Positions 5,495 to 15,605 of a DNA stretch of 15,605 bases are shown here, one piece after another (the first letter of the stretch is position 1; every line of letters starts with the position of its first letter). The DNA comes from an uncultured Planctomycetaceae bacterium (GTDB taxonomy: Bacteria; Planctomycetota; Planctomycetia; Planctomycetales; Planctomycetaceae). The notes under the pieces are model-generated. The model worked only from the letters and a program-made list of their open reading frames with translations, was not told where the DNA came from and searched no databases. Position numbers and translations under genes: made by a program. The stretch is from positions 1-15,605 of the forward strand of contig CAIXQV010000121.1 in NCBI GenBank assembly GCA_903921605.1, in the 5' to 3' direction.

Positions 5495-5860
5495 TGCTTA
5501 CTCCATCGATCACTGACTCAGGCAGCAGAGACTTCGTGCGGAGCTCTGTACTTCAGCCGAAAAAAAACGCACCACGTATCAGGCAAGTTGAATTCGTCGT
5601 CAGGTGGGGCCTCAAACCGGCGTGGGAAACCATTCCGGGTTGATCATGGATTAAGCCTTGTGACACTGATTGACTGCTTCTTATTCGACTTTTCTGCGGA
5701 ACATCCTTCTGACGCAACAAGTGATGCATTTCTTACCTCGAATTTGGCCGGAATGCAGTTCTCCCGTGCACAGCCATTTCACGTAAGACAACTTGTGGCA
5801 ACGACGTCTTAATGCCGTTGACGTTTGTTTTCAGGTTTGGTGGTGAGTGAGGAAACTACA
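5495..5860. other. Intergenic region between small gene and msrAB
   Basis: This 366-base gap separates two divergent genes and should hold promoters for both. The ribosome site of each gene is visible at its ends (GGAG complement at 5501-5504, GAGGA at 5849-5853). I could not identify convincing -35/-10 pairs, an operator or an RNA gene. A + strand frame is open from 5462 to 5812, but it has no ribosome site and no recognisable motif. Confidence 0.5.
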
Positions 5861-7011
5861 ATGTTACGTAAACGACTTTTGTCTGTTCTGTGTGTTGCAT
5901 TGAGCGTCGGCTCACTTCAAGTCTTTCGATCGCAGGAACAAATTAAAAGCGAGGCGAACGAGATGGTTCCCCAGCAGTTCGTTCAGACTGCTGTGTTTGC
6001 CGGTGGCTGTTTCTGGAGCATAGAGCGTACGTTCGAAAAACTTCCGGGTGTTATCAAAGTTGAATCCGGCTACACCGGTGGTCGGTTGAAGAATCCAACG
6101 TATAAGGACGTCTCGCATTCTGATACCGGTCACGTGGAAGCGATTCAGGTAACCTATGACTCACGTCGAATCGCATACAACGATCTCCTCGAGGTCTTCT
6201 GGCGAAATGTTGACCCTACAGATAATGGTGGTCAGTTCGTCGACCGAGGGGTTCCTACATTCCCGTGATCTTCGTTTCAGGGGAAGAACAACAGCAGACG
6301 GCTGAAGCATCCAAGGGCAACCTTGAGAAGTCCGGAAGATTCAAACGACCAATCAAAACGTCGATTCGTCTGGCCGGCGTGTTTTATCCAGCTGAAGAAT
6401 ATCACCAGGATTTTTACAAGAAGAATCCTGTTCGATACGAAGCTTGTCGTCTTGGATCGGGCCGTGAAGATTTCATCAACGAAGTTTGGGGCGCCGATCG
6501 CAACTACATGGTTCCCGAGAAAAATGGGGAGATGACAATGACATCAGCCAGGGGCGAAGACCGAGAATACACGAAACCGTCCGATGCCGTATTGCGAACA
6601 ACTCTGACGGCAATTCAATACAAGGTGACTCAGCAGGAGGGCACCGAGCCCCCGTTCGACAATGAGTACTGGAACAATACGGCCGATGGAATCTACGTCG
6701 ACGTTGTTACCGGGGAGCCGTTGTTCAGTTCACGTCACATGTTCAAATCTGGAACAGGATGGCCGTCGTTCTATCGTCCTATCAGTGAAGGCAGCGTTGT
6801 CGAAAAGACGGACGGTCATCTTTTTATGCAGCGGACGGAAGTTCGTTCGAAGCACGGCGATTCTCATCTGGGGCATGTCTTTGATGATGGGCCGAAGCCA
6901 ACCGGACTGCGTTATTGCATGAATTCCGCAGCCCTGCGTTTCGTGCCCGCAGACGAACTTGAGTCGCAGGGGTATGGCGAGTTTTCAATGATGTTTGCTT
7001 CTGCCAAATAG
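5861..7011 (+). pseudogene. msrAB: Exported MsrA-MsrB methionine sulfoxide reductase fusion, single-base frameshift
   Basis: MsrA reduces methionine-S-sulfoxide and MsrB methionine-R-sulfoxide in proteins. A signal sequence (about residues 1-22) points to envelope repair. MsrA has GGCFW with catalytic Cys50. MsrB has [14 protein letters not shown] and RYCMNS with the catalytic Cys at about 353 in the restored frame; the usual paired CxxC zinc ligands are absent. The frame breaks after codon 130: GGQFVDRG is followed by VPTFP and a stop at 6266-6268, while the next frame continues as [13 protein letters not shown]. Adding one G to the four at 6248-6251 gives [12 protein letters not shown], which aligns without a gap to the family DRGSQYRP region and yields 383 residues. 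The start is ATG 5861, with GAGGA at 5849-5853. The break may be a real mutation, a sequencing or assembly error, or programmed slippage. As written, only a truncated MsrA (135 residues) would be made, plus MsrB only if reinitiation occurs. Confidence 0.88.
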
Positions 7012-7466
7012 ACTGGGGCTCATGTTTCTCTATGAAGACTTCGCGTCAGCGAGAAGATTGAAAGCAGTTCGACCGCTGCGAATCGTCTCGCTGACGTTTC
7101 GGTTTGGGCACTAACAAAACCGGTTCAACGCGAAATCATGTACGCGAGCATGGCAGTTGGAAATCCCTGCGATCAATCCTGAATGGATGGCAGAAATTAG
7201 CCGGTGGTCGCCGACAGACGCACCACCGGTGACCGAACGCGTTGCAAACTCATCCTGAAGGGATGACAGAAACCACGATTCTGGCACCCATTTCAGGGTG
7301 CAATCGCAGGATTCGCCGCAAACCGGTGGTTGGCGCTGCGCTGACCACCGGCTAACTTCCTAAACCGCTTCGCGGTGAATCACAACGACCTCCGTGAAGG
7401 CCGAAGCGGAGTTAATACAGCTTCACCCCAGTCGCTCGTGCACTTGATTTCGCGCAGAGCTGAAGC
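7012..7466. repeat. Gene-free region with clustered inverted and direct repeats (REP-like)
   Basis: No coding frame is credible here. Several structures can be read directly. An 11-base inverted repeat pairs 7044-7054 (CGTCAGCGAGA) with 7086-7096. Two copies of one hairpin share the arms CCGGTGGT/ACCACCGG, at 7201-7208 with 7222-7229 and at 7323-7330 with 7344-7351, each with a 13-base loop. A direct repeat of the form ATCCTGAAkGGATGrCAGAAA occurs near 7177-7196 and 7252-7272, and each copy contains a small hairpin. A 6-bp stem lies at 7284-7289 with 7296-7301, and a 5-bp stem at 7364-7368 with 7372-7376. The duplicated hairpin suggests members of a dispersed intergenic repeat family, possibly also acting as a transcription end barrier between msrAB and the convergent arsS gene. 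Confidence 0.7.
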
Positions 7467-7483
7467 CTACTTCTGAAGGCTTC
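7462..7483 (-). terminator. Weak hairpin spanning the arsS stop codon
   Basis: A 7-bp stem (7462-7468 pairing with 7477-7483, 8-base loop) covers the last codons and the stop of arsS. No U-run follows on the minus strand, so it is at best an atypical terminator or an mRNA end stabiliser. Confidence 0.3.
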
Positions 7484-8519
7484 CCTGACAACTTGAGCCA
7501 GCACCTGCCGTGCATCCCAAACAATGACGGGCCGTGGCAATTTTACGATTGCGAATAACCGTCAGAGTGGATTCATTGAGATCGCGAATGTGACCCGGCA
7601 CTCCGGGCTTTAGTCCTAGTCCCAGCATTTGATTGAAGTCGCAATCGAAAAGGTTGCCCTGCCAATCCACGGAAAGCATCGAGCGACACATAACTCCGTC
7701 GAGCGTCGAAGCGTTGAATGCATTCAAGAGCTTGTTCATGTACTCGTCATAACGCCCGGCCGTCAACAGGTCATCAAGAAAACGACTGATGGGCATATTG
7801 GTGATGGTGAACAGTTGAGTGAATTCGATTCCGTAACGACTCCTGAGTTCGCGACGATAGTCTGCCTCCAACTTCGCCTGCGAAGGCGGCAGTGAGAATC
7901 CAACGGGGTTGTAAACGAGTGACAACGGCAGCGACGAACCCGGCAGACCGTACCCCAGTCGGTTCAATCGTACCAAGGCCTCTATTGATCGCCGGAAGAC
8001 GTCATTGCCACGCTGCTTATCGACGTTTTCTTCCAGATAACACGGCAGCGATGCCACGATCTCGACCTGATTGGCGGCCAGGAAGTCTGGCAGGTCATCA
8101 AACCCAGGTGCGAGCAGGATGGTTAAATTGCAGCGATCGATGATGCGTTTCCCCATCGAGGCGGCTTCGGTCACAAGCCGTCGAAACTGAGGATTCATCT
8201 CTGGCGCACCTCCCGTGATATCAAGCGTCAGGATCTGTGCCAGTTTCAAAACTCGAAGACACTCGGATGCGATCTCTTCCGACATGCTCTCGCGACGATC
8301 GGGCCCGGCATCGACATGGCAGTGAGTGCATGTCTGATTGCAAACTTTGCCAACGTTGATTTGCAATACGTCGATGCCAGTCGCAGACAGTTCACCAAGG
8401 CCGTGTGATGAAAGGACGTCATTAAATCTCGGGATGGATTCATTGGATTCCAGAACTCGCAACTGCTCGCTGGCGAGAGCAAGCAAGCTTTGTCGTTTTG
8501 TCAGCGACGCCTGGGCCAT
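7467..8519 (-). CDS. arsS: Arsenosugar biosynthesis radical SAM protein ArsS
   Basis: The 350-residue product is a radical-SAM enzyme: CNQTCTHC at 60-67 supplies the three cysteines for the 4Fe-4S cluster, and ITGGAPEMN at about 101-109 is the GGE-like SAM-binding segment. The cysteine-rich C-terminus (Cys278, Cys293, and HCLGCTAGAGSSCQGSL at about 332-348) matches the radical SAM/Cys-rich family TIGR04167. ArsS in cyanobacteria is reported to join dimethylarsenic to the 5'-deoxyadenosyl group of SAM, giving the nucleoside precursor of arsenosugars. Here it lies 99 bases downstream of arsM on the same strand, which supports that role. Some family members carry selenocysteine; this one appears to use only cysteine. 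ATG 8519 is preferred although its ribosome site is weak (AAAAGAA); a TTG at 8579 would add 20 residues unlike the family. Confidence 0.9.
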   Translation of the reverse strand: MAQASLTKRQSLLALASEQLRVLESNESIPRFNDVLSSHGLGELSATGIDVLQINVGKVCNQTCTHCHVDAGPDRRESMSEEIASECLRVLKLAQILTLDITGGAPEMNPQFRRLVTEAASMGKRIIDRCNLTILLAPGFDDLPDFLAANQVEIVASLPCYLEENVDKQRGNDVFRRSIEALVRLNRLGYGLPGSSLPLSLVYNPVGFSLPPSQAKLEADYRRELRSRYGIEFTQLFTITNMPISRFLDDLLTAGRYDEYMNKLLNAFNASTLDGVMCRSMLSVDWQGNLFDCDFNQMLGLGLKPGVPGHIRDLNESTLTVIRNRKIATARHCLGCTAGAGSSCQGSLQK

Positions 8520-8579
8520 ATTACGTTCTTTTCGATGTTGAAAAACTAATGATTCAAATTTGCTATGGCGTACTGCCAA

Positions 8580-8606
8580 CGGTTTTTCATGGCAAACGGA
8601 AAACCG
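8580..8606 (-). other. Intercistronic hairpin between arsM and arsS
   Basis: Bases 8580-8588 pair with 8598-8606 (nine pairs, one of them a T-G wobble in the + strand reading) around a 9-base loop. The structure starts 12 bases past the arsM stop and ends 60 bases before the arsS start. No U-run follows, so it is more likely an mRNA processing, stability or partial attenuation element than a full terminator. Confidence 0.45.
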
Positions 8607-8618
8607 CAGCCACCCAAT

Positions 8619-9800
8619 CTAGCAACAAACCCCATCTGTTGCGCAGTTAGGTCCGGACGCTTCGGTGGTCGCATTGTATTCGAGTCCCTTGGTCTCCCTC
8701 GGATCGCGTAACTGGCTGCGATGGCAGTCAAAGGCGACCGCGTCATCGAGCGCAATAGCTTCCATCGGCTCAATGGGAGTGAATGATCCATCGTATGGCG
8801 CTTTGTTCAAGAGCTGGAACGTCTTGTCGCAGACGGCCGTCCGCAAGCCGCGGTGGTAAATATGACCGTCGTCATCTCGAACGGTCTTGAATGGACCTCG
8901 ATAAACAACGGCTTGTTTGCGTTCAAGGCAAGGACCTTGTTTACCCTTATAAGCCACCACAGTCATCGATCGAAACTCAATTCCCTCAATCGTTTGCCAC
9001 GGTTCACTTTGACGCTTTGCAATCTGCATCCCATAGAAACCTGCGTCCTGGAACGCTTGCAGAAACTCGTCTTCACGAAACGCGCCGGACAGGCATCCGG
9101 ACCAAAGCGTCGGGTCCTTGGTCAAATGATCAGGAACGGATTCATCAGATACGATATCACTGATTGCTGCCCGGCCGCCTCGCTTGAGCACTCGAAAGAT
9201 TTCGGCGAACAATTGACGTCGATCAGCCTGCCGGACAAGGTTCAAGACACAGTTTGAAATCACGCAATCGATTGAGTCGCTCTCAACAAGCGGATGCTCG
9301 GCACGCAATTGTTCCTCAAGATTTCTAAGCCGCAGATAGCCCGACGCATCCTGAATCGGAGCTCCATCCAGTTCGCTCTCAAGCTTTTCCAGACTAAGCC
9401 GCAAATCCTGAATCAGACCGTACCGGAAATCGACATTCGCAAACCCAACATTGGTGGCAACGGTCGGAGCGTGTTTTCGTGCAAGGGACAGCATCTCACG
9501 ATTGCAATCCACGCCGATCACTCGGCCAGCGGAACCAACAATCTGCGAAGCGATGAAACAGAGCTTTCCGCCGCCCGAACCAAGATCCAGAACTGTCTCA
9601 CCCGCATTAATGTATGGAGTCGGATCGCCGCAGCCATAATCTCGTTCAATGATCTCCGCCGGAATCGCCGCCAGATATTCAGCATTTGAATAAGAAACAG
9701 GACAGCAAAGTGCAGCTTCGACGGCCTGAGCTGCAGCCGCGTAACGTTCATACACGCTGGATTCTGCAGTGTGAGTTGGATTGGTTGTCGTACTTTCCAT
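8619..9800 (-). CDS. arsM: Arsenite methyltransferase ArsM, arsenosugar type
   Basis: The 393-residue SAM-dependent methyltransferase should convert arsenite to methylated arsenicals, the substrate of ArsS. Motif I is VLDLGSGGGKLCF at about 70-82, and the acidic end of beta-2 is GVDCN. The ArsM cysteines that hold As(III) are represented by Cys32/Cys33 (CCPVSY), Cys184 (SNCVLNL) and Cys236 (SGCLSGA). An insertion at about 131-172 (LRLSLEKLESEL to EEQLRAEHP) and a C-terminal extension of about 100 residues distinguish it from the short detoxification ArsM. The extension ends with Cys386, Cys392 and Cys393 (NCATDGVCC), a likely extra arsenic or thiol site. It is the first gene of the minus-strand arm and is followed by arsS. 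The start ATG at 9800 has only an AGAAG-like ribosome site. Confidence 0.92.
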   Translation of the reverse strand: MESTTTNPTHTAESSVYERYAAAAQAVEAALCCPVSYSNAEYLAAIPAEIIERDYGCGDPTPYINAGETVLDLGSGGGKLCFIASQIVGSAGRVIGVDCNREMLSLARKHAPTVATNVGFANVDFRYGLIQDLRLSLEKLESELDGAPIQDASGYLRLRNLEEQLRAEHPLVESDSIDCVISNCVLNLVRQADRRQLFAEIFRVLKRGGRAAISDIVSDESVPDHLTKDPTLWSGCLSGAFREDEFLQAFQDAGFYGMQIAKRQSEPWQTIEGIEFRSMTVVAYKGKQGPCLERKQAVVYRGPFKTVRDDDGHIYHRGLRTAVCDKTFQLLNKAPYDGSFTPIEPMEAIALDDAVAFDCHRSQLRDPRETKGLEYNATTEASGPNCATDGVCC

Positions 9801-10400
9801 GAGAGGTCTTCTTGATTCTGGCGGAAGGAACGTGCGAGTGGTTTCTGTTGAACGCGACTATTTGGTTCAGTTTGATGAAGCAGCTTTCTGATTCTTACGG
9901 GCTTTCATTAACGTTTTTGGTCATACAATCCCCTGTCATATTCCAAAAAGCTGAAACGACCAGCCCCGGCCGCCGCAGATTTTTGTGCGTTTCCTTCCGG
10001 TCACCATGCTGCGATCTTCTTAAGTCGATGCCAACTATCACATCCGCTGCCACAACAGCTTTGGGTGAGAGAAGCAAGGCCGCAATAAACGCACACCTGC
10101 TTGACGTCTATCAGGCTGTTAAATTGGTCACAAGACTGAGCCACAATGCGCTAGCCGCGGGTGTTTTCCTTTTGTTTTCTGACATTTACCCGCAGCCAAC
10201 GCTTTGCGGCTCGCTAAATCAATAGCTTGAAATGCGATTGAGCGATAGACGCCGACAGATTCTTTGATGCACCAGCCGCAACCTCCTTACTTTAAATTCT
10301 CCAGAATCTGGACGTTCTTTCACTACATCACGAATCATTCCGTAATGATTGCGTATGGAGTGCGTCAGAGGAACACTCGCCGGACCTCCTTCCAGGACGA
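9801..10400. other. Divergent intergenic region of the arsenic locus
   Basis: These 600 bases separate arsM (leftward) from the TVP38 gene (rightward) and must contain both promoters. The + strand frame open from 9812 to 10225 and the one at 10264-10461 have no ribosome site and no family resemblance, so I treat them as chance. The notable structure is a perfect palindrome at 10333-10350. A smaller palindrome, CCAGA-a-TCTGG, lies at 10301-10311. I could not fix -35/-10 boxes with confidence, and no arsR gene is present in the gap. Confidence 0.5.
10333..10350. promoter_or_regulatory. Candidate operator palindrome upstream of the TVP38-reductase operon
   Basis: AATCATT at 10333-10339 and its exact complement AATGATT at 10344-10350 are separated by 4 bases (CCGT). 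The dyad is 50 bases before the upstream ATG candidate of the membrane-protein gene. AT-rich dyads of this size are typical of dimeric repressors, including ArsR/SmtB-type ones, but the regulator is not identified. Confidence 0.4.
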
Positions 10401-11258
10401 ATGGCCTGGCCACGGGTATCAAGCGAGACACTTCTCAAAGCATCAGACTTCTGCACCATGAATCGATTGAATCCATCGAACCCATCAGAAAAAAGTCCCA
10501 GCGGCGGATTGAGTGAACCTCAGGAAGGGTCGCCGAAAGTCCGCAAGACGTGGGGGAAGCCAGTTGCACTGGTAGTTGTAGCCGTTATCGCAGCCATCGC
10601 GTACTGGCAATTGGGCGACCGATTGTCACTTGACTACCTGGCTCAACGTGAATCCCAATTACGAAGCTTGCAGCGATCTGCTCCAGGACTTGCCGCGTTT
10701 GTTGCGATCGGCATTTACGTCGCGGTCACCGGGCTTTCTTTGCCCGGCGCAGCCGTATTGACATTGGTCTTCGGCTGGTACTTTGGATTCGTACAAGGAC
10801 TCTTCATCGTCAGCGTCGGTTCGACGACCGGAGCGACGGTTGCATTTCTGCTCAGCAGGTATTTCCTTCGAGATTGGGTGCAGCGTTCGATGCAAGCTCG
10901 ATTAACTGGCATTAACGATGCACTGGAACGTGAAGGCGCGTTTTATCTGTTCACGTTGCGGTTGATTCCCGTCGTCCCGTTCTTTGTTGTCAACGCGGTC
11001 ATGGGGCTGACCAGGATTCGAGCCACCACGTTTTGGTGGGTCAGTCAGATCGGAATGCTGCCCGGCACCGCCGCATATGTGTATGCCGGCTCAACAGTCC
11101 CAAGTCTTGAAGTTCTGGCGAAGGAAGGCGCAGGAAAAGTGCTCAGTTGGCAACTTGTCCTGGGCTTTATCATCCTCGGACTTTTTCCTCTCGCCGTCAA
11201 AAAACTCGTTAGCCTTTTCGCGAGTCAGCCAACCACAGAAGAAGTCACATCAACATGA
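10401..11258 (+). CDS. TVP38/TMEM64 family membrane protein
   Basis: The 285-residue integral membrane protein belongs to the TVP38/TMEM64 (VTT/DedA-like) family. Hydrophobic segments lie at about 55-68, 94-112, 115-145, 170-195, 202-220 and 245-265. Family signatures are LSLPGAAVLTLVFGWYFGFVQG, then GATVAFLLSRYFLRDW, and later LRLIPVVPFFVVNAVMG. Proteins of this fold are thought to move lipids or small ions; no substrate can be read from sequence. In many bacteria the family sits beside, or is fused to, a mercuric-reductase-like flavoprotein, as here, where the next gene overlaps by 4 bp (ATGA). The start is uncertain: ATG 10401 has AGGA at 10394-10397 but only 3 bases of spacing, while ATG 10458 (266 aa) has no clear ribosome site but fits a normal cytoplasmic tail. 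A transport step for an arsenic intermediate is inference from context only. Confidence 0.87.
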   Translation: MAWPRVSSETLLKASDFCTMNRLNPSNPSEKSPSGGLSEPQEGSPKVRKTWGKPVALVVVAVIAAIAYWQLGDRLSLDYLAQRESQLRSLQRSAPGLAAFVAIGIYVAVTGLSLPGAAVLTLVFGWYFGFVQGLFIVSVGSTTGATVAFLLSRYFLRDWVQRSMQARLTGINDALEREGAFYLFTLRLIPVVPFFVVNAVMGLTRIRATTFWWVSQIGMLPGTAAYVYAGSTVPSLEVLAKEGAGKVLSWQLVLGFIILGLFPLAVKKLVSLFASQPTTEEVTST

Positions 11259-12769
11259 GTTACTTGAAACAGCTTGAACCGCTCGGCCCGTCAAACCAGA
11301 TCCTGCAATCGAATGTCCATCCACTCGACTGGACGAATCCGACTCCGACTGGGCGTTACAACCTGGTGGTGATCGGCGCAGGAACGGCGGGACTCGTAAC
11401 GGCCGCGGGGGCTGCGGGGCTTGGAGCCAGGGTTGCCATTATTGAACGCGGCCTGATGGGAGGCGATTGCCTGAACGTGGGCTGTGTGCCGTCAAAAGCC
11501 ATCATCAGCGCGGGCCGTGCAGCAGCAGCCGTTCGTCATGCTCATGGTTTTGGCGTCAACGGAGCCGACGGAGCCTCCGTCGACTTTGCAGCCGTGATGC
11601 AGCGAATGAGAGACCTGCGTGCTCGCATCAGCCCCAACGATTCAGCCGCCAGGTTCCGCGCTTTGGGGATTGACGTATTCTTTGGTCAGGCCAGCTTTGT
11701 TGATTCCAATACGATCGACGTAGATGGGACCAGGCTTCAGTTCAAGCGAGCGGTGATCGCAACCGGAGCGCGAGCCGCCGCGCCACCGATTCCGGGTCTG
11801 AACGAAGTCGATTACTTGACGAATGAAACACTGTTCTCGCTGACAACGCTGCCGCGAAGGCTGGGTGTTATCGGAGCTGGACCGATCGGATGTGAGATGG
11901 CTCAGACGTTTGCTCAGCTTGGCTCCGAAGTCCTTATCGTCGAAACCGCGAACGGTGTCCTGCCGCGAGAAGATCGGGACGCCGCCGCGATCGTCGAACA
12001 AGCGATGATTCGAGACGGAGTTAAGTTATTGCGAGGTGGCAAGAATTTGGCGATCAAGAATCATGACGGGATTCGATTGAGTGTTGAATGCAATGGAGCT
12101 GGATTCAACGAGATGGTGGATCAGCTTTTGGTTTCCGTCGGTCGTGCTCCCAACGTGGAGAATCTGAATCTCGAAGCGGTCGGTGTCGAATATACGAAGA
12201 AGGGCGTCGTCGTTAATGATCAACTGCAAACGACGAACCGCATGATCTATGCGGCCGGAGATGTTTGTTCGCCCTATCAATTCACCCACGCCGCCGACTT
12301 CATGGCACGCATCGTGATCCAAAATGCACTCTTCAAAGGCAGACTGAAATCCAGTTCGCTGATTATTCCCTGGTGTACCTACACCTCGCCCGAGATTGCT
12401 CACGTTGGCTTGTACGAGCATCAGGCAATCGAACAAAACGTGGCCATTGACACCTACGTGCAAAAGTTTCACGACGTGGATCGAGCGATCCTTGAGGGTG
12501 AGGAAAATGGCTTTGTCAAAGTCCATGTGAAGCATGGCACTGACAAAATTGTAGGAGCAACGATCGTCGCAAGGTCGGCCGGAGATTTGATCTCGGAGAT
12601 CACATTGGCCATGACAAACGGCGTTGGGTTATCGAAGATTGCCAACACCATTCATCCGTATCCAACTCAAGCGGAAGCGATTCGCAAACTTGGCGACCAG
12701 TACAATCGCACTCGCTTGACGCCCTTCGTCAAATCCCTGTTTTCTCGCTGGCTTAAATGGACGCGATGA
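11255..12769 (+). CDS. Flavoprotein disulfide reductase, MerA/RclA-like
   Basis: The 504-residue class I pyridine nucleotide-disulfide oxidoreductase has an FAD-binding GAGTAG at about 41-46 and the redox pair Cys72/Cys77 in GGDCLNVGCVPSK. The NAD(P) fold is GVIGAGPIGCEMAQ at about 204-217, the second FAD motif is AAGDV at about 334-338, and the dimerisation-domain His467 and Glu474 (HPYPTQAE) act across the subunit interface. It has no N-terminal heavy-metal-associated domain and no C-terminal cysteine pair, so it is not a classical mercuric reductase. It groups better with the MerA-like/RclA enzymes found next to TVP38 proteins. The first 34 residues form an extension before the FAD fold. 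The 4-bp start/stop overlap with the membrane-protein gene indicates translational coupling. Its substrate may be a thiol, a metal or an arsenical; the sequence does not decide. Confidence 0.9.
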   Translation: MSYLKQLEPLGPSNQILQSNVHPLDWTNPTPTGRYNLVVIGAGTAGLVTAAGAAGLGARVAIIERGLMGGDCLNVGCVPSKAIISAGRAAAAVRHAHGFGVNGADGASVDFAAVMQRMRDLRARISPNDSAARFRALGIDVFFGQASFVDSNTIDVDGTRLQFKRAVIATGARAAAPPIPGLNEVDYLTNETLFSLTTLPRRLGVIGAGPIGCEMAQTFAQLGSEVLIVETANGVLPREDRDAAAIVEQAMIRDGVKLLRGGKNLAIKNHDGIRLSVECNGAGFNEMVDQLLVSVGRAPNVENLNLEAVGVEYTKKGVVVNDQLQTTNRMIYAAGDVCSPYQFTHAADFMARIVIQNALFKGRLKSSSLIIPWCTYTSPEIAHVGLYEHQAIEQNVAIDTYVQKFHDVDRAILEGEENGFVKVHVKHGTDKIVGATIVARSAGDLISEITLAMTNGVGLSKIANTIHPYPTQAEAIRKLGDQYNRTRLTPFVKSLFSRWLKWTR

Positions 12770-12868
12770 CCGCTATGATGCTCGGCGGCAATGTGGACCA
12801 GAGTCACTTTTCCCAAAGCGAACGTTGACCGTCAAACAAATCAGATAAGAGTGCTGCCAGAAAGGTGC

Positions 12869-13996
12869 ATGATTGTGCTCGCCCGTTCCGTTGTATTGCT
12901 GGGAGTTGGGCACACGAACGCTCACATCCTCAAGGAATGGGCCAGCGATCCGATTCCTGATTGCCGACTTGTCTGCATCTCGCAGTACCCAACAGCCACC
13001 TATTCCGGAATGCTGCCGGGGACTCTGGCGGGGCAGTTTTCACCAAACGAAATGCAGATCGACCTGGAGAAGCTCGTCTCCCGTGCGGGTGCAACATTGA
13101 TTCGTGCAGACGTCACATCCGTCGATTGGAAGCAGCGTGTGCTGAAGTTCTCAGACACTGACTCTCTAAGTTTCAATGTGCTATCCGTCGGCGTTGGATC
13201 GATTCCTTCTGGAATTCCGGACCCAAAGACGGATTGCGTTATACCTGTGAAACCGATGCAGACATTTCTGCGGCGTCTGGATGATCGCATGGAATTCCTG
13301 GCGCCAAAGTCAGGTCGAACGCTGCAGATCGCTGTTGTAGGCGGAGGTGTCGCGAGCGTTGAGATAGCACTATGCCTGCAAACAGGATTTCAATTACAGT
13401 TCCCCGCAGTAAATATCAAGATTCGCATTTTGACTGCGGCCGATGAGATCGCATCTGAACTGGCAAAAAACAGTATTCAAAAGATCAGGAGGATTCTTCA
13501 CTCACGTGGAATTGAAGTACTAACGCAAACGCGAGTCTCAGAAGTTAATGATTCCGGCATGATGATGAATGGAACTGAGTTTCTGTCGGCCGACTGTGTC
13601 ATCTGGTCCACCGGCGCAGTGGCTCCTCCAGTGTTGTCACGACTGGGACTGCCAGTTGATGAACACGGTTTTCTTCTGACAAGTTCGACGTTGCAAAGCA
13701 CGGCCGATCCAATGGTTTTTGCGGTTGGTGATTCCGGGAGCATCACGGGAATTCCATTCGCCAAAGCAGGGGTCTATGCGGTGAGGCAGTCACCAGTACT
13801 CTGGCACAATCTCAGATCCGTTCTGGTTGGCGGACCACTGACAAGATTCACGCCCCAACACAACTTTTTGAAGATCTTGAATACCGGCGATGATCGAGCG
13901 CTAATGATCTACAAGTCACTGGCGATTCATGCTCGCTGGTGCTGGACACTCAAAACCTGGATTGACCGAAGGTTCCTCCGACGGTTTCAGAGCTAG
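12869..13996 (+). CDS. Stand-alone FAD oxidoreductase related to the N-terminal half of SelD fusions
   Basis: The 375-residue NDH-2-like flavoprotein contains LLGVGHTNAHIL at about 10-21 (dinucleotide fold) and TYSGMLPGTLAGQFSPNE at about 44-61. A second dinucleotide site, AVVGGGVASVEIAL, lies at about 155-168, an FAD-contact FAVGDSGS at about 284-291, and a C-terminal LKTWIDRRFLRRF. This combination matches the family described as the N-terminal part of bifunctional selenide, water dikinase proteins (TIGR03169); here the SelD part is absent. No CxxxxC redox pair is seen, unlike the preceding reductase, so quinone- or sulfide/selenide-type chemistry is possible but unproven. The start is uncertain: ATG 12869 follows AAAGG closely, GTG 12875 has better spacing, and an ATG at 12791 would add 26 residues. 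The gene is 99 bases downstream of the reductase and probably in the same operon. Confidence 0.82.
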   Translation: MIVLARSVVLLGVGHTNAHILKEWASDPIPDCRLVCISQYPTATYSGMLPGTLAGQFSPNEMQIDLEKLVSRAGATLIRADVTSVDWKQRVLKFSDTDSLSFNVLSVGVGSIPSGIPDPKTDCVIPVKPMQTFLRRLDDRMEFLAPKSGRTLQIAVVGGGVASVEIALCLQTGFQLQFPAVNIKIRILTAADEIASELAKNSIQKIRRILHSRGIEVLTQTRVSEVNDSGMMMNGTEFLSADCVIWSTGAVAPPVLSRLGLPVDEHGFLLTSSTLQSTADPMVFAVGDSGSITGIPFAKAGVYAVRQSPVLWHNLRSVLVGGPLTRFTPQHNFLKILNTGDDRALMIYKSLAIHARWCWTLKTWIDRRFLRRFQS

Positions 13997-14237
13997 TCCG
14001 ACGGCATTTTTTGACATGATGGTGGCACAGATATGGAAAGAAATGCCTGACCCCGCGTTCCGAGACACAGCTTTTCGATACATCCATCGATCGAGAACCT
14101 GACATCAGAATCAAAGGTGATCCTGTCAGCCGATAAATCACATGAACAATTCCCACAAATTGTCGGTTTCCAGTGCGATTGTTCCGTTCACAAAACAGAA
14201 ACACGGGATCACGAGCTCAACAAAGGGATGCTCAGAG

Positions 14238-14903
14238 ATGTCCAAACGTGGCTTGAATCAGGACTCTGGAACTGCCCGTCGGCAGGTTTTCTCTGCCTTC
14301 CTGCGCCGTCTCCACGATTCAAGACGCCTCCTTCACAAGCTCTCAGCCGGAACTGGCTTGATCCGATTCGGATTCGCCCTGACGCTGATCAGTACCACTC
14401 TGCTGGCTGGATGTTCAAAATCGTCCGGCTGGGTTCGTCGAGGCCACAGTGGCGACAGTAGTGCCGACGATCGTGGCATCGCTCGACTGGAAGAAGAGGC
14501 TGCTCCCAAGTCAGCGTCAAATGCAGATCGCAGCCGTGAAAGGAAATTTGAGCTGACCGGCATGACAAAGCCCGCCGCTGAACCATCGCTGATAACTCTC
14601 GGACCAGGTGACAGCTTTGAATCGCAGATCCAGAACGCTCAGGGTGTTGTTCTGGTGGATTTCTTCGCCGAGTGGTGTGGGCCATGCAAAAAACAGGCAG
14701 TGATTCTCCACGATCTTGAACCAGAAGCGGCAGAGTACGGAGCGAAGATTGTCAAAATCGATGTGGATGAACACAAAGATGTCGCGAAGAAATTCGGTGT
14801 TTCATCGCTGCCGACACTGATCGTGTTCAAAAACGGAGAAATCGTTGATCGCCATACGGGGCTAACTGACCGCAGGAGTGTCGAACGGCTTCTCAAAATG
14901 TAA
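14238..14903 (+). CDS. Thioredoxin-domain lipoprotein
   Basis: The 221-residue product has a long basic N-terminus, a hydrophobic segment and a lipobox LLAG-Cys59. It should be lipid-anchored with the soluble part outside the cytoplasm. After a charged, low-complexity linker (about 60-115) comes a thioredoxin domain (about 118-221) with FFAEWCGPCKK (Cys147, Cys150) and the cis-proline motif SLPTL. The redox pair is the classical thioredoxin type, so it probably reduces disulfides or oxidised substrates. ATG 14238 is chosen because AAGGG lies about 10 bases upstream. An in-frame ATG at 14142 would lengthen the signal region by 32 residues, while a TTG at 14358 would give a more usual signal length (Cys at about 19). 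It lies between the flavoproteins and the glycosyltransferase of the arsenic locus, with gaps of 241 and 429 bases. Confidence 0.85.
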   Translation: MSKRGLNQDSGTARRQVFSAFLRRLHDSRRLLHKLSAGTGLIRFGFALTLISTTLLAGCSKSSGWVRRGHSGDSSADDRGIARLEEEAAPKSASNADRSRERKFELTGMTKPAAEPSLITLGPGDSFESQIQNAQGVVLVDFFAEWCGPCKKQAVILHDLEPEAAEYGAKIVKIDVDEHKDVAKKFGVSSLPTLIVFKNGEIVDRHTGLTDRRSVERLLKM

Positions 14904-15332
14904 GCGGTCCACAAACCAACGCTGCCCATAGATCTTTCGAATCATCGTTCGACGGCACGGCAATGAAGTCTCACGGCCTTATTTCTGCCCGTGCAGCAGT
15001 CTCCGAATGAAGAGCCGCCATCGTTTATTGTCCGGGAACAAGAAAAGACAATCGCGATTGGTACCTCGCAAACATGACCAGGACGAATGGCATTCCCGTG
15101 CTCAAGGGAACTCACCCTCAATAACAGATTCGCCACGCACAACACTCCGCAACATACCTGACCACAGCGCCGCACTCGGTACGCCGAGCAGACGAACGTT
15201 CCTCGCCATTGTCCCACGCAGAGCCGCGTCCCGTCTGGTCTTCACTTGGTCAGAAATGATACTCTTGTCTATCAGCCGGAGCGCGCGCGGCCTGACTCCA
15301 TTGCTTGCCCCCTGTTGAACTAAGCCTGCCGA
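14904..15332. other. Intergenic region before the glycosyltransferase gene
   Basis: These 429 bases contain no frame I can support. Open frames on both strands (14942-15217 minus, 15007-15318 plus) lack ribosome sites and have unprotein-like composition rich in Arg, Ser and Cys. I see no strong hairpin, promoter or RNA gene. It may hold a separate promoter for the downstream gene. Confidence 0.45.
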
Positions 15333-15605
15333 ATGACAAACTCTGAGCCAACGTCTGCCGCTACCGGAAAGCCGGAGAAACAACGGAATGTCCCGGGGCA
15401 TGTCGTCGATCAGCGAATCATCGTGATGGCTCGCTGCCCCGAAGCCGGCAAAGTGAAGACTCGACTCATCCCAGCACTGGGGCCAGACGGAGCTGCAAAA
15501 CTGCACTTTTGCCTTGTTGAGAACACTCTGAAAACCGTAAGACAGTTTACGAACCGGCAGTCCTGTGATATCGAGGTGCAGTTCGCTGGCGGCTCGACAG
15601 ATGAC
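15333..15605 (+). CDS. TIGR04282-type arsenosugar biosynthesis glycosyltransferase (3' partial)
   Basis: Ninety-one codons are visible before the window ends. After an N-terminal tail of about 28 residues comes RIIVMARCPEAGKVKTRLIPALG, the nucleotide-binding start of the DUF2064/TIGR04282 family (GT-A fold, related to CofC-like nucleotidyltransferases). GAAKLHFCLVENTL follows and continues the family pattern. This family is named for its co-occurrence with arsM/arsS and is thought to add or process the sugar part of arsenosugars. A TIGR04283 partner and a nucleoside phosphorylase often follow in such loci and might lie beyond the window. ATG 15333 is the first suitable start, and no clear ribosome site precedes it; a GTG start nearer the conserved block is possible. 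The family call is firm from the motif, while the reaction is inferred. Confidence 0.85.
   Translation, partial: MTNSEPTSAATGKPEKQRNVPGHVVDQRIIVMARCPEAGKVKTRLIPALGPDGAAKLHFCLVENTLKTVRQFTNRQSCDIEVQFAGGSTDD

Follow-up and report, generated by a model that had tools for sequence, protein, structure and literature searches.

Membrane-linked redox genes recur with the arsenosugar-type genes of a planctomycete locus

The window analysed here (the whole 15,605-nucleotide stretch of contig CAIXQV010000121.1, from an uncultured Planctomycetaceae bacterium) carries the arsenic genes arsS and arsM together with genes for a TVP38/VTT membrane protein (VTT), a flavin adenine dinucleotide (FAD)-dependent disulfide reductase of the NF004991 family, a SelD-N-like flavoprotein of the TIGR03169 family, a thioredoxin and a TIGR04282-type glycosyltransferase. 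VTT, the reductase and the SelD-N-like protein form a recurrent membrane-linked redox module, whose association with the arsenic genes is statistical and is best for the reductase. The locus is of a known kind, and its novelty lies in the module. The membrane protein and both flavin enzymes were also found to travel with arsenic genes in unrelated bacteria, which makes them good candidates for the parts that the pathway still lacks; the three are likely to be functional partners of ArsM and ArsS. With somewhat less assurance, the locus is read as one of arsenosugar type whose conserved redox module at the membrane would keep methylated arsenic reducible. Reduction of pentavalent arsenicals is put forward, tentatively, as the exact step that the module may serve.

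Co-occurrence was counted in 297 planctomycete genomes of one class (that of genome G001) and in 299 genomes of Pseudomonadota. The reductase was called as a match to the NF004991 family at E ≤ 1e-130, a threshold at which 128 of 141 planctomycete matches but only 4 of 107 pseudomonadotal matches exceed the curated cut-off of the model. ArsS was detected in 93 and the reductase in 141 of the 297 planctomycete genomes. The reductase was present in 79 of the 93 planctomycete genomes with arsS versus 62 of the 204 without it (odds ratio 12.9), and in 67 of 91 versus 40 of 208 in Pseudomonadota (odds ratio 11.7). The two genes also lie close together. Among the same-contig arsS-reductase pairs of planctomycetes, 23 of 42 (from 23 genomes) were found within 15 kb, 13 of them within 2 kb, the chance value within 15 kb being 0.44 pairs for assumed 7-Mb genomes. 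In Pseudomonadota, 14 of 18 pairs were found within 4 kb, with a chance value within 15 kb of 0.72 pairs for assumed 3-Mb genomes. The proximity is thus about 50 times chance in planctomycetes and about 19 times chance in Pseudomonadota. Among 14 named control genomes, only that of Synechococcus elongatus gave a match for ArsS, and likewise only it gave one for the reductase at threshold. On a quick-method tree of 82 reductases (including 39 of the 40 arsS-less rows, one short row being left out, plus the window and four named loci), the label "near arsS" requires no fewer than 9 changes, and starred branches of the tree force 4 of these. The linkage between reductase and arsS therefore arose or was lost repeatedly.

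An association with arsM was observed even where arsS is absent. In the DISCRIMINATING result, obtained for arsS-less planctomycetes, a strong ArsM match was detected in 27 of 62 genomes with the reductase versus 2 of 62 without it (odds ratio 23, p 7e-8). A strong match was one of at least 365 bits to the window's ArsM over at least 70% of its length, the next best match reaching 80 bits, and the reductase-less comparison set consisted of 62 genomes sampled at even steps from the 142 planctomycetes lacking both arsS and the reductase. The distribution of the reductase therefore matches arsenic methylation rather than sugar assembly alone, which speaks for a function in methylated-arsenic redox chemistry. 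Shared ancestry may explain part of this association.

Gene neighbourhoods were compared in 100 of the 101 planctomycete arsS regions (that of G129 was left out), which extend up to 9.5 kb on each side and in many cases are cut by contig ends, and in 40 of the 62 reductase regions of arsS-less planctomycetes. The 100 arsS regions contain arsM in 60 cases, VTT in 22, the reductase in 18, MsrA/B-like genes in 4, the SelD-N-like gene in 3 and a thioredoxin homologue in 1. No more than 2.5 kb separates VTT from the reductase in 16 of the 18 regions having the latter, in 25 of the 40 arsS-less regions and in all 4 of the other arsS loci having a reductase. Among 80 such other arsS loci, which give the nearest background figure for VTT, the gene occurs in 4, each time with the reductase. 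VTT and reductase form one protein in the arsS loci of a Methylotetracoccus (L049) and a member of Burkholderiales (L052), on the arsS plasmids of Acinetobacter (L268) and Burkholderia (L294), and in one arsS-less planctomycete (L249). The 120 best of at least 8000 homologues of the fused protein carry PF09335, PF07992 and PF02852. Fusion to PF07992/PF02852 is described in the available text of PMC10127716 as the commonest fusion of COG0398 DedA proteins, and as linked to aerobic metabolism. The window has the same domains, but in separate adjoining genes whose frames overlap by 4 nt, and a link to arsenic was not seen in the available part of that account. MsrA/B-like genes lie near VTT and the reductase in L237, L238, L178, L182, L220 and L222.

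The SelD-N-like open reading frame encodes 401 residues and ends after the TIGR03169 domain, with no match to SelD. Like the SelD fusion proteins, it has the N-terminal TIGR03169 domain at a score over the cut-off, but it stands alone, without the SelD domain; the nearest sequences of solved structure are those of the NDH-2-like protein YjlD and of FSP1. TIGR03169 gave 84 matches in 83 of the 297 planctomycete genomes, 50 of which lie in frames of at least 600 residues, mostly more than 700. Frames of fewer than 600 residues in planctomycetes and fewer than 700 in Pseudomonadota were counted as stand-alone, and the long frames were called SelD fusions from their length and the name of the model. 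In planctomycetes, the stand-alone form was found in 23 of 93 arsS genomes versus 11 of 204 others (odds ratio 5.8, p 5e-6), and the long form in 17 of 93 versus 33 of 204, without bias. Within 10 kb of arsS or the reductase lie 5 of 34 stand-alone copies (in G003, G016, G096, G130 and G213) and 1 of 50 long copies (in G101). In Pseudomonadota, the corresponding figures for the reductase are 9 of 16 stand-alone and 0 of 21 long copies (G589, where the contig ends, was left out). It is only in planctomycetes that the stand-alone SelD-N-like protein goes with arsS; in Pseudomonadota it goes with the reductase. The long form shows neither association. Locus L242 (from G016) clusters VTT, the reductase, the SelD-N-like gene and a TIGR04282-TIGR04283 frame; neither arsS nor ArsM was detected in that genome.

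The closest relative with a readable neighbourhood is a 5.2-kb contig of G303 (L191), whose ArsS, ArsM and reductase are 84%, 84% and 80% identical to those of the window (ArsS proteins up to 94% identical exist). On one strand, it carries a partial VTT gene, the reductase gene, arsM, arsS and a frame that holds TIGR04282 and then the beginning of TIGR04283. The sequence-only reading had described two divergent arms, an arrangement that is not kept in L191 and was rejected as a functional layout. Beyond planctomycetes, six arsS plasmid loci were opened (five of them annotated), and four contain both VTT and the reductase. In pPg_02 of Pseudanabaena galeata, genes for TVP38, the reductase (54% identical to that of the window; NF004991, 833 bits), arsM, a second TVP38 and arsS follow in a row on one strand. 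On the unannotated plasmid p1 of Cupriavidus sp. KK10 (L267, 5089-14645), profile matches gave the order arsM, arsS, reductase, VTT, TIGR04283, TIGR04282, a gene like that for 5'-methylthioadenosine (MTA) phosphorylase, and DUF547, again on one strand. Both loci share with the window TVP38/VTT, a reductase of the same family, arsM and arsS, theirs lying within 7 kb, and both differ from it in their one-strand layout and in having no SelD-N-like match. The Pseudanabaena locus further differs in its second TVP38 gene and in having no TIGR04282 in the stretch, and the Cupriavidus locus, which like the window has TIGR04282, differs in its TIGR04283, MTA-phosphorylase-like and DUF547 genes. For laboratory work on the whole pathway, Cupriavidus sp. 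KK10 p1 is a good candidate. The Acinetobacter portensis locus contains arsS, the fused VTT-reductase, DUF547, TIGR04283, TIGR04282, a methyltransferase and a phosphate transporter. The Burkholderia glumae plasmid (L294) carries TIGR04282, TIGR04283, MTA phosphorylase, the fused VTT-reductase, CcdA, thioredoxin and arsS in one stretch, with a stand-alone TIGR03169 protein (346.8 bits, 31% identical to that of the window) overlapping TIGR04282. This arsenosugar-type gene set lies about 25 kb from an annotated mer set, and 47 of the 52 plasmid records with an ArsS match are from Burkholderia.

In Synechocystis, slr0304 is presumably ArsS. In the available part of the published account, slr0303 is arsM and slr0305, two locus tags away, is a Tvp38 homologue. 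The cyanobacterial pathway of SsArsM and SsArsS, as far as the available text of PMC8552651 describes it, has the ArsM and ArsS families in common with the window, which comes from a planctomycete. No open-licence paper among the matches listed ties VTT/TVP38, the MerA-like reductase, the SelD-N-like protein or the thioredoxin to arsenosugar genes.

Several observations weigh against a partnership of the module with ArsM and ArsS. All co-occurrence and proximity counts ignore kinship among the genomes. In planctomycetes, 19 of the 42 same-contig arsS-reductase pairs are at least 44 kb apart, and the reductase is missing at threshold from 14 of 93 planctomycete and 24 of 91 pseudomonadotal arsS genomes. 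Conversely, 62 genomes of the planctomycete class have the reductase without arsS, 35 of them without a strong ArsM match. The five stand-alone TIGR03169 copies near arsS or the reductase are only a small part of the 34 in planctomycetes, the long form in G101 lies 2 kb from the reductase, and among Pseudomonadota the arsS genomes show no excess of the stand-alone form (4 of 91 versus 12 of 208). The arsS plasmid loci of Thiodictyon and Hymenobacter have no VTT or reductase within 7 kb. The sequence-only reading had placed the membrane and redox genes in the same pathway, unless related genomes were to keep arsM-arsS without them. None of VTT, the reductase, the SelD-N-like gene and the thioredoxin was found in 75 of the 100 planctomycete arsS regions, nor in 44 of the 60 with arsM, yet both the co-occurrence of the reductase with arsS and its proximity far exceed chance. 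The proposal stands for VTT, the reductase and, in planctomycetes, the SelD-N-like protein, all non-random partners of arsS, and is weak for the thioredoxin. Finally, the fused VTT-reductase lies near a CDP-alcohol phosphatidyltransferase in all 5 arsS-less proteobacterial plasmid loci opened. The VTT-reductase module therefore has a wider use, perhaps with lipids.

These five loci make a lipid role a serious rival. The VTT-reductase-SelD-N module would then be a membrane redox system related to lipids, which in arsenosugar loci synthesises, flips or protects phospholipids containing arsenosugars and in other loci serves other unusual phospholipids, a possibility that we consider unlikely. It draws on the phosphatidyltransferase in the five plasmid loci, two of which also have a sterol desaturase, on fatty-acid hydroxylase/sterol-desaturase genes in 8 of 100 planctomycete arsS regions versus 0 of 40 arsS-less reductase regions, and on the presence of DUF547 in both arsS and arsS-less loci. 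The DedA family also includes lipid flippases and scramblases, according to the available text of PMC10127716. However, the CDP-alcohol phosphatidyltransferase, as represented by a profile built from 4 proteins only, was found in 0 of 100 planctomycete arsS regions, 0 of 40 arsS-less regions and 0 of 80 other arsS loci, and the link of the reductase to ArsM persists where arsS is absent, as a lipid role would not predict. The eight regions with fatty-acid hydroxylase/sterol-desaturase genes are L134, L142, L158, L161, L165, L169, L184 and L194. The arsS-less plasmids with the fused VTT-reductase (L291, L292, L293, L295 and L296) come from marine or algae-associated and other proteobacteria, and some carry ABC transporters, DUF547 or TIGR03169; their loci possibly serve the uptake of an organoarsenical, or of some other head group, and its incorporation into lipids.

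The redox genes could also be general oxidative-stress or repair genes of the envelope that, together with MsrA/MsrB and thioredoxin, drift near arsS, arsenic being incidental. MsrA/B-like genes do occur in 4 of 100 planctomycete arsS regions and beside VTT-reductase and thioredoxin in the arsS-less loci L237 and L238, and the window itself has an msrA/msrB gene and a DUF1223 gene upstream. Drift of this kind is at odds with the proximity of reductase and arsS, many times chance in both genome sets, and with the recurrence of the association in separate lineages (three phyla, counting one cyanobacterial locus), so we regard it as less plausible still than the lipid role.

The solved protein closest to the reductase is a mercuric reductase, followed by dihydrolipoamide dehydrogenases and more mercuric reductases. 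The CxxxxC redox pair is kept in 77 of 77 aligned rows, and a Tyr occupies, in 76 of 76 rows and as in the aligned MerA chains, the column that we take to be that of the catalytic His of lipoamide dehydrogenase. MerA carries a C-terminal vicinal cysteine pair. No CC was found in the last 30 residues of any of 78 family rows, the window's included and some of them duplicates. The active site is therefore MerA-like without the MerA cysteine tail. That the enzyme is nevertheless a true mercuric reductase and the plus-strand arm a mercury-resistance island beside arsenic genes, as the best solved match, the Tyr and the annotation of the Pseudanabaena homologue as mercuric reductase might suggest, is highly improbable, and the island was rejected: the reductase scores 394.7 bits against the MerA model TIGR02053 (cut-off 454.45), the cysteine tail is absent, and no other mer gene was found among the window proteins scanned. 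On the B. glumae plasmid, moreover, merA, merC and merR are annotated as a set of their own, some 12 kb away from the fused VTT-reductase. NF004991 proteins beside arsM and arsS call for caution against a mercury-resistance reading.

A major part of the organic arsenic in algae and seafood is present as arsenosugars. The steps of ArsM and ArsS in their synthesis are known, and we know of no enzyme assigned to the arsenic redox steps. Because methylated arsenic readily oxidises to its pentavalent form, the pathway needs a reductase. The substrate of ArsS is dimethylated arsenic, and adenine is removed by a phosphorylase. By homology with other organisms, ArsM of the window would methylate arsenite and ArsS would move a 5'-deoxyadenosyl group onto dimethylated arsenic, a phosphorylase would take off the adenine, and glycosyltransferases of the TIGR04282 type, together with the TIGR04283 type lying off the window, would complete the sugar. 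The MerA-like reductase, anchored by VTT, would return pentavalent methylated or adenosylated arsenic to the trivalent thiol-bound form used by ArsM and ArsS. NAD(P)H electrons would pass through its active site with the CxxxxC pair and the invariant Tyr, VTT would hold the enzyme at the membrane, and the NDH-2-like SelD-N protein would act as an electron partner and may couple the module to quinones. Radical SAM adenosylation of arsenic by ArsS is described in the available portions of PMC12159101 and PMC8552651.

A bolder form of the redox-module reading, possible but doubtful, is that VTT, the NF004991 protein and the stand-alone TIGR03169 protein constitute one reductase, bound to the membrane and linked to NAD(P)H or quinones, that acts on pentavalent methylated and ribosylated arsenicals. 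On this reading, the enzyme would be present in Planctomycetota, Cyanobacteriota and Pseudomonadota, in many cases with VTT and the reductase in a single polypeptide, and would carry the wrong annotation of mercuric reductase or of a generic oxidoreductase. If true, the reduction step that is lacking from bacterial arsenic methylation and arsenosugar synthesis would be accounted for, and the COG0398 VTT-oxidoreductase fusions would have a function. Families with generic names (TVP38/TMEM64, "mercuric reductase" or FAD-dependent oxidoreductase, and "Nterm_to_SelD") are found repeatedly with arsS and with one another, and the questions of how methylated arsenic is reduced and what the VTT-oxidoreductase fusions do become open to knock-outs and enzyme assays.

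The window is very probably an arsenosugar-type locus, and its source planctomycete probably makes arsenosugar-type organoarsenicals. The sequence-only reading had named both the type of locus and its genes, and both are borne out; all the named genes were recovered as open reading frames with profile matches, arsS and arsM on the minus strand and the others on the plus strand (Table 1). The CX3CX2C cysteines of ArsS (C80, C84 and C87) are invariant across 18 aligned sequences, the window's included. Its start is probably that given in the table, because the aligned relatives begin 20 residues later. Among the matches listed, the ArsS relatives bearing organism names are planctomycetes, including Pirellulales. 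ArsM falls below the cut-off of each NCBIfam ArsM model listed, NF040538 being the best, and reaches 132 bits against the cut-off of 400 of NF038099, the curated arsenosugar-type model. It is an ArsM of another branch than NF038099. Arsenic methyltransferases make up the five best of its seven PDB matches, and its ygCg, isnCv and Cl cysteines align in the two PDB alignments shown.

Table 1. Genes and intergenic gap of the arsenosugar-type locus, with the evidence for each
Feature	Coordinates	Strand	Evidence
ArsS radical SAM	open reading frame 7467-8579, likely start 8519	minus	TIGR04167, 445 bits (cut-off 300)
arsM, arsenite methyltransferase	8619-9800	minus	NF040538, 339 bits (below cut-off 500)
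Gap between the two arms, 600 bp	9801-10400		sequence read; promoters not identifiable
TVP38/VTT membrane protein (DedA superfamily)	10401-11258	plus	PF09335, 86.2 bits (cut-off 33.9)
MerA-like FAD/NAD(P) disulfide reductase (PRK06370.1-3)	11255-12769	plus	NF004991, 815 bits (cut-off 620)
Stand-alone SelD-N-like flavoprotein	12791-13996, probable start near 12869	plus	TIGR03169, 329.7 bits (cut-off 310)
Exported-type lipoprotein-like thioredoxin, CGPC	14142-14903	plus	PF00085; TIGR01068, 100.1 bits (cut-off 96.8)
TIGR04282 glycosyltransferase, 5' end	15333-15605, cut by the window end	plus	model positions 1-57 of 189, 52.7 bits

The TIGR04282 gene is cut at the window end with its first 91 codons present, and its score lies below the model cut-off of 134. 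No TIGR04283-type match was found in the window up to 15605, and no purine nucleoside or MTA phosphorylase was found in its six frames with two profiles. A phosphorylase occurs in 14 of the 100 planctomycete arsS regions and is therefore not obligatory within about 9.5 kb of arsS. TIGR04282 occurs in 37 and TIGR04283 in 33 of the 100 regions, and in relatives TIGR04283 adjoins or is fused to TIGR04282; the two share one frame in 16 of the 33 regions holding both. From these shared frames and that of L191, the cut gene is predicted to run into, or precede, TIGR04283.

The thioredoxin contains a lipobox-like LLAGC motif, read as a lipobox, and would thus be of the exported lipoprotein type. A clear homologue was found in only 1 of the 100 planctomycete arsS regions (L126, 62% identical), where it directly follows a SelD-N-like gene (71% identical to that of the window) downstream of arsM-arsS, with a phosphate transporter and a rhodanese in between and then an ArsR-like regulator on the other strand. 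Distant thioredoxins beside CcdA occur near arsS in two proteobacterial loci, of Acinetobacter and Burkholderia. A conserved partnership of thioredoxin with arsS is suggestive and no more, and as a candidate it was set aside as weak, with a single clear homologue. In L126, the transporter is of the PHO4 type and the rhodanese has a CTIGVR loop, and with the ArsR-like regulator they lie alongside the arsM-arsS-SelD-N-thioredoxin set at 8588-12779; PHO4-type transporters occur in 6 of the 100 planctomycete arsS regions.

A promoter consensus scan of 7000-15605 was uninformative (1 site versus 4.4 in shuffles, none in 9801-10400). Rfam and tRNA scans of the window found nothing, megablast of the locus against plasmids gave no match, and profiles for CcdA and ABC importers gave no match in the planctomycete arsS regions. 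DUF547 occurs in arsS loci of several phyla (L268, 10052-10846; L270, 3271-4002; L267, 13740-14645), in the planctomycete regions L133, L178, L181, L184, L219 and L221, and beside the reductase in arsS-less genomes too. Upstream of arsS in the window, an msrA-msrB gene with an apparent signal sequence (5825-7011, plus strand) is split by a frame change near 6265, and is either a pseudogene or the product of a sequence error. A further redox-type gene upstream of arsS encodes a DUF1223 protein (PF06764; 1893-2693, plus strand) that has a thioredoxin-like CSSCPP motif and is apparently exported.

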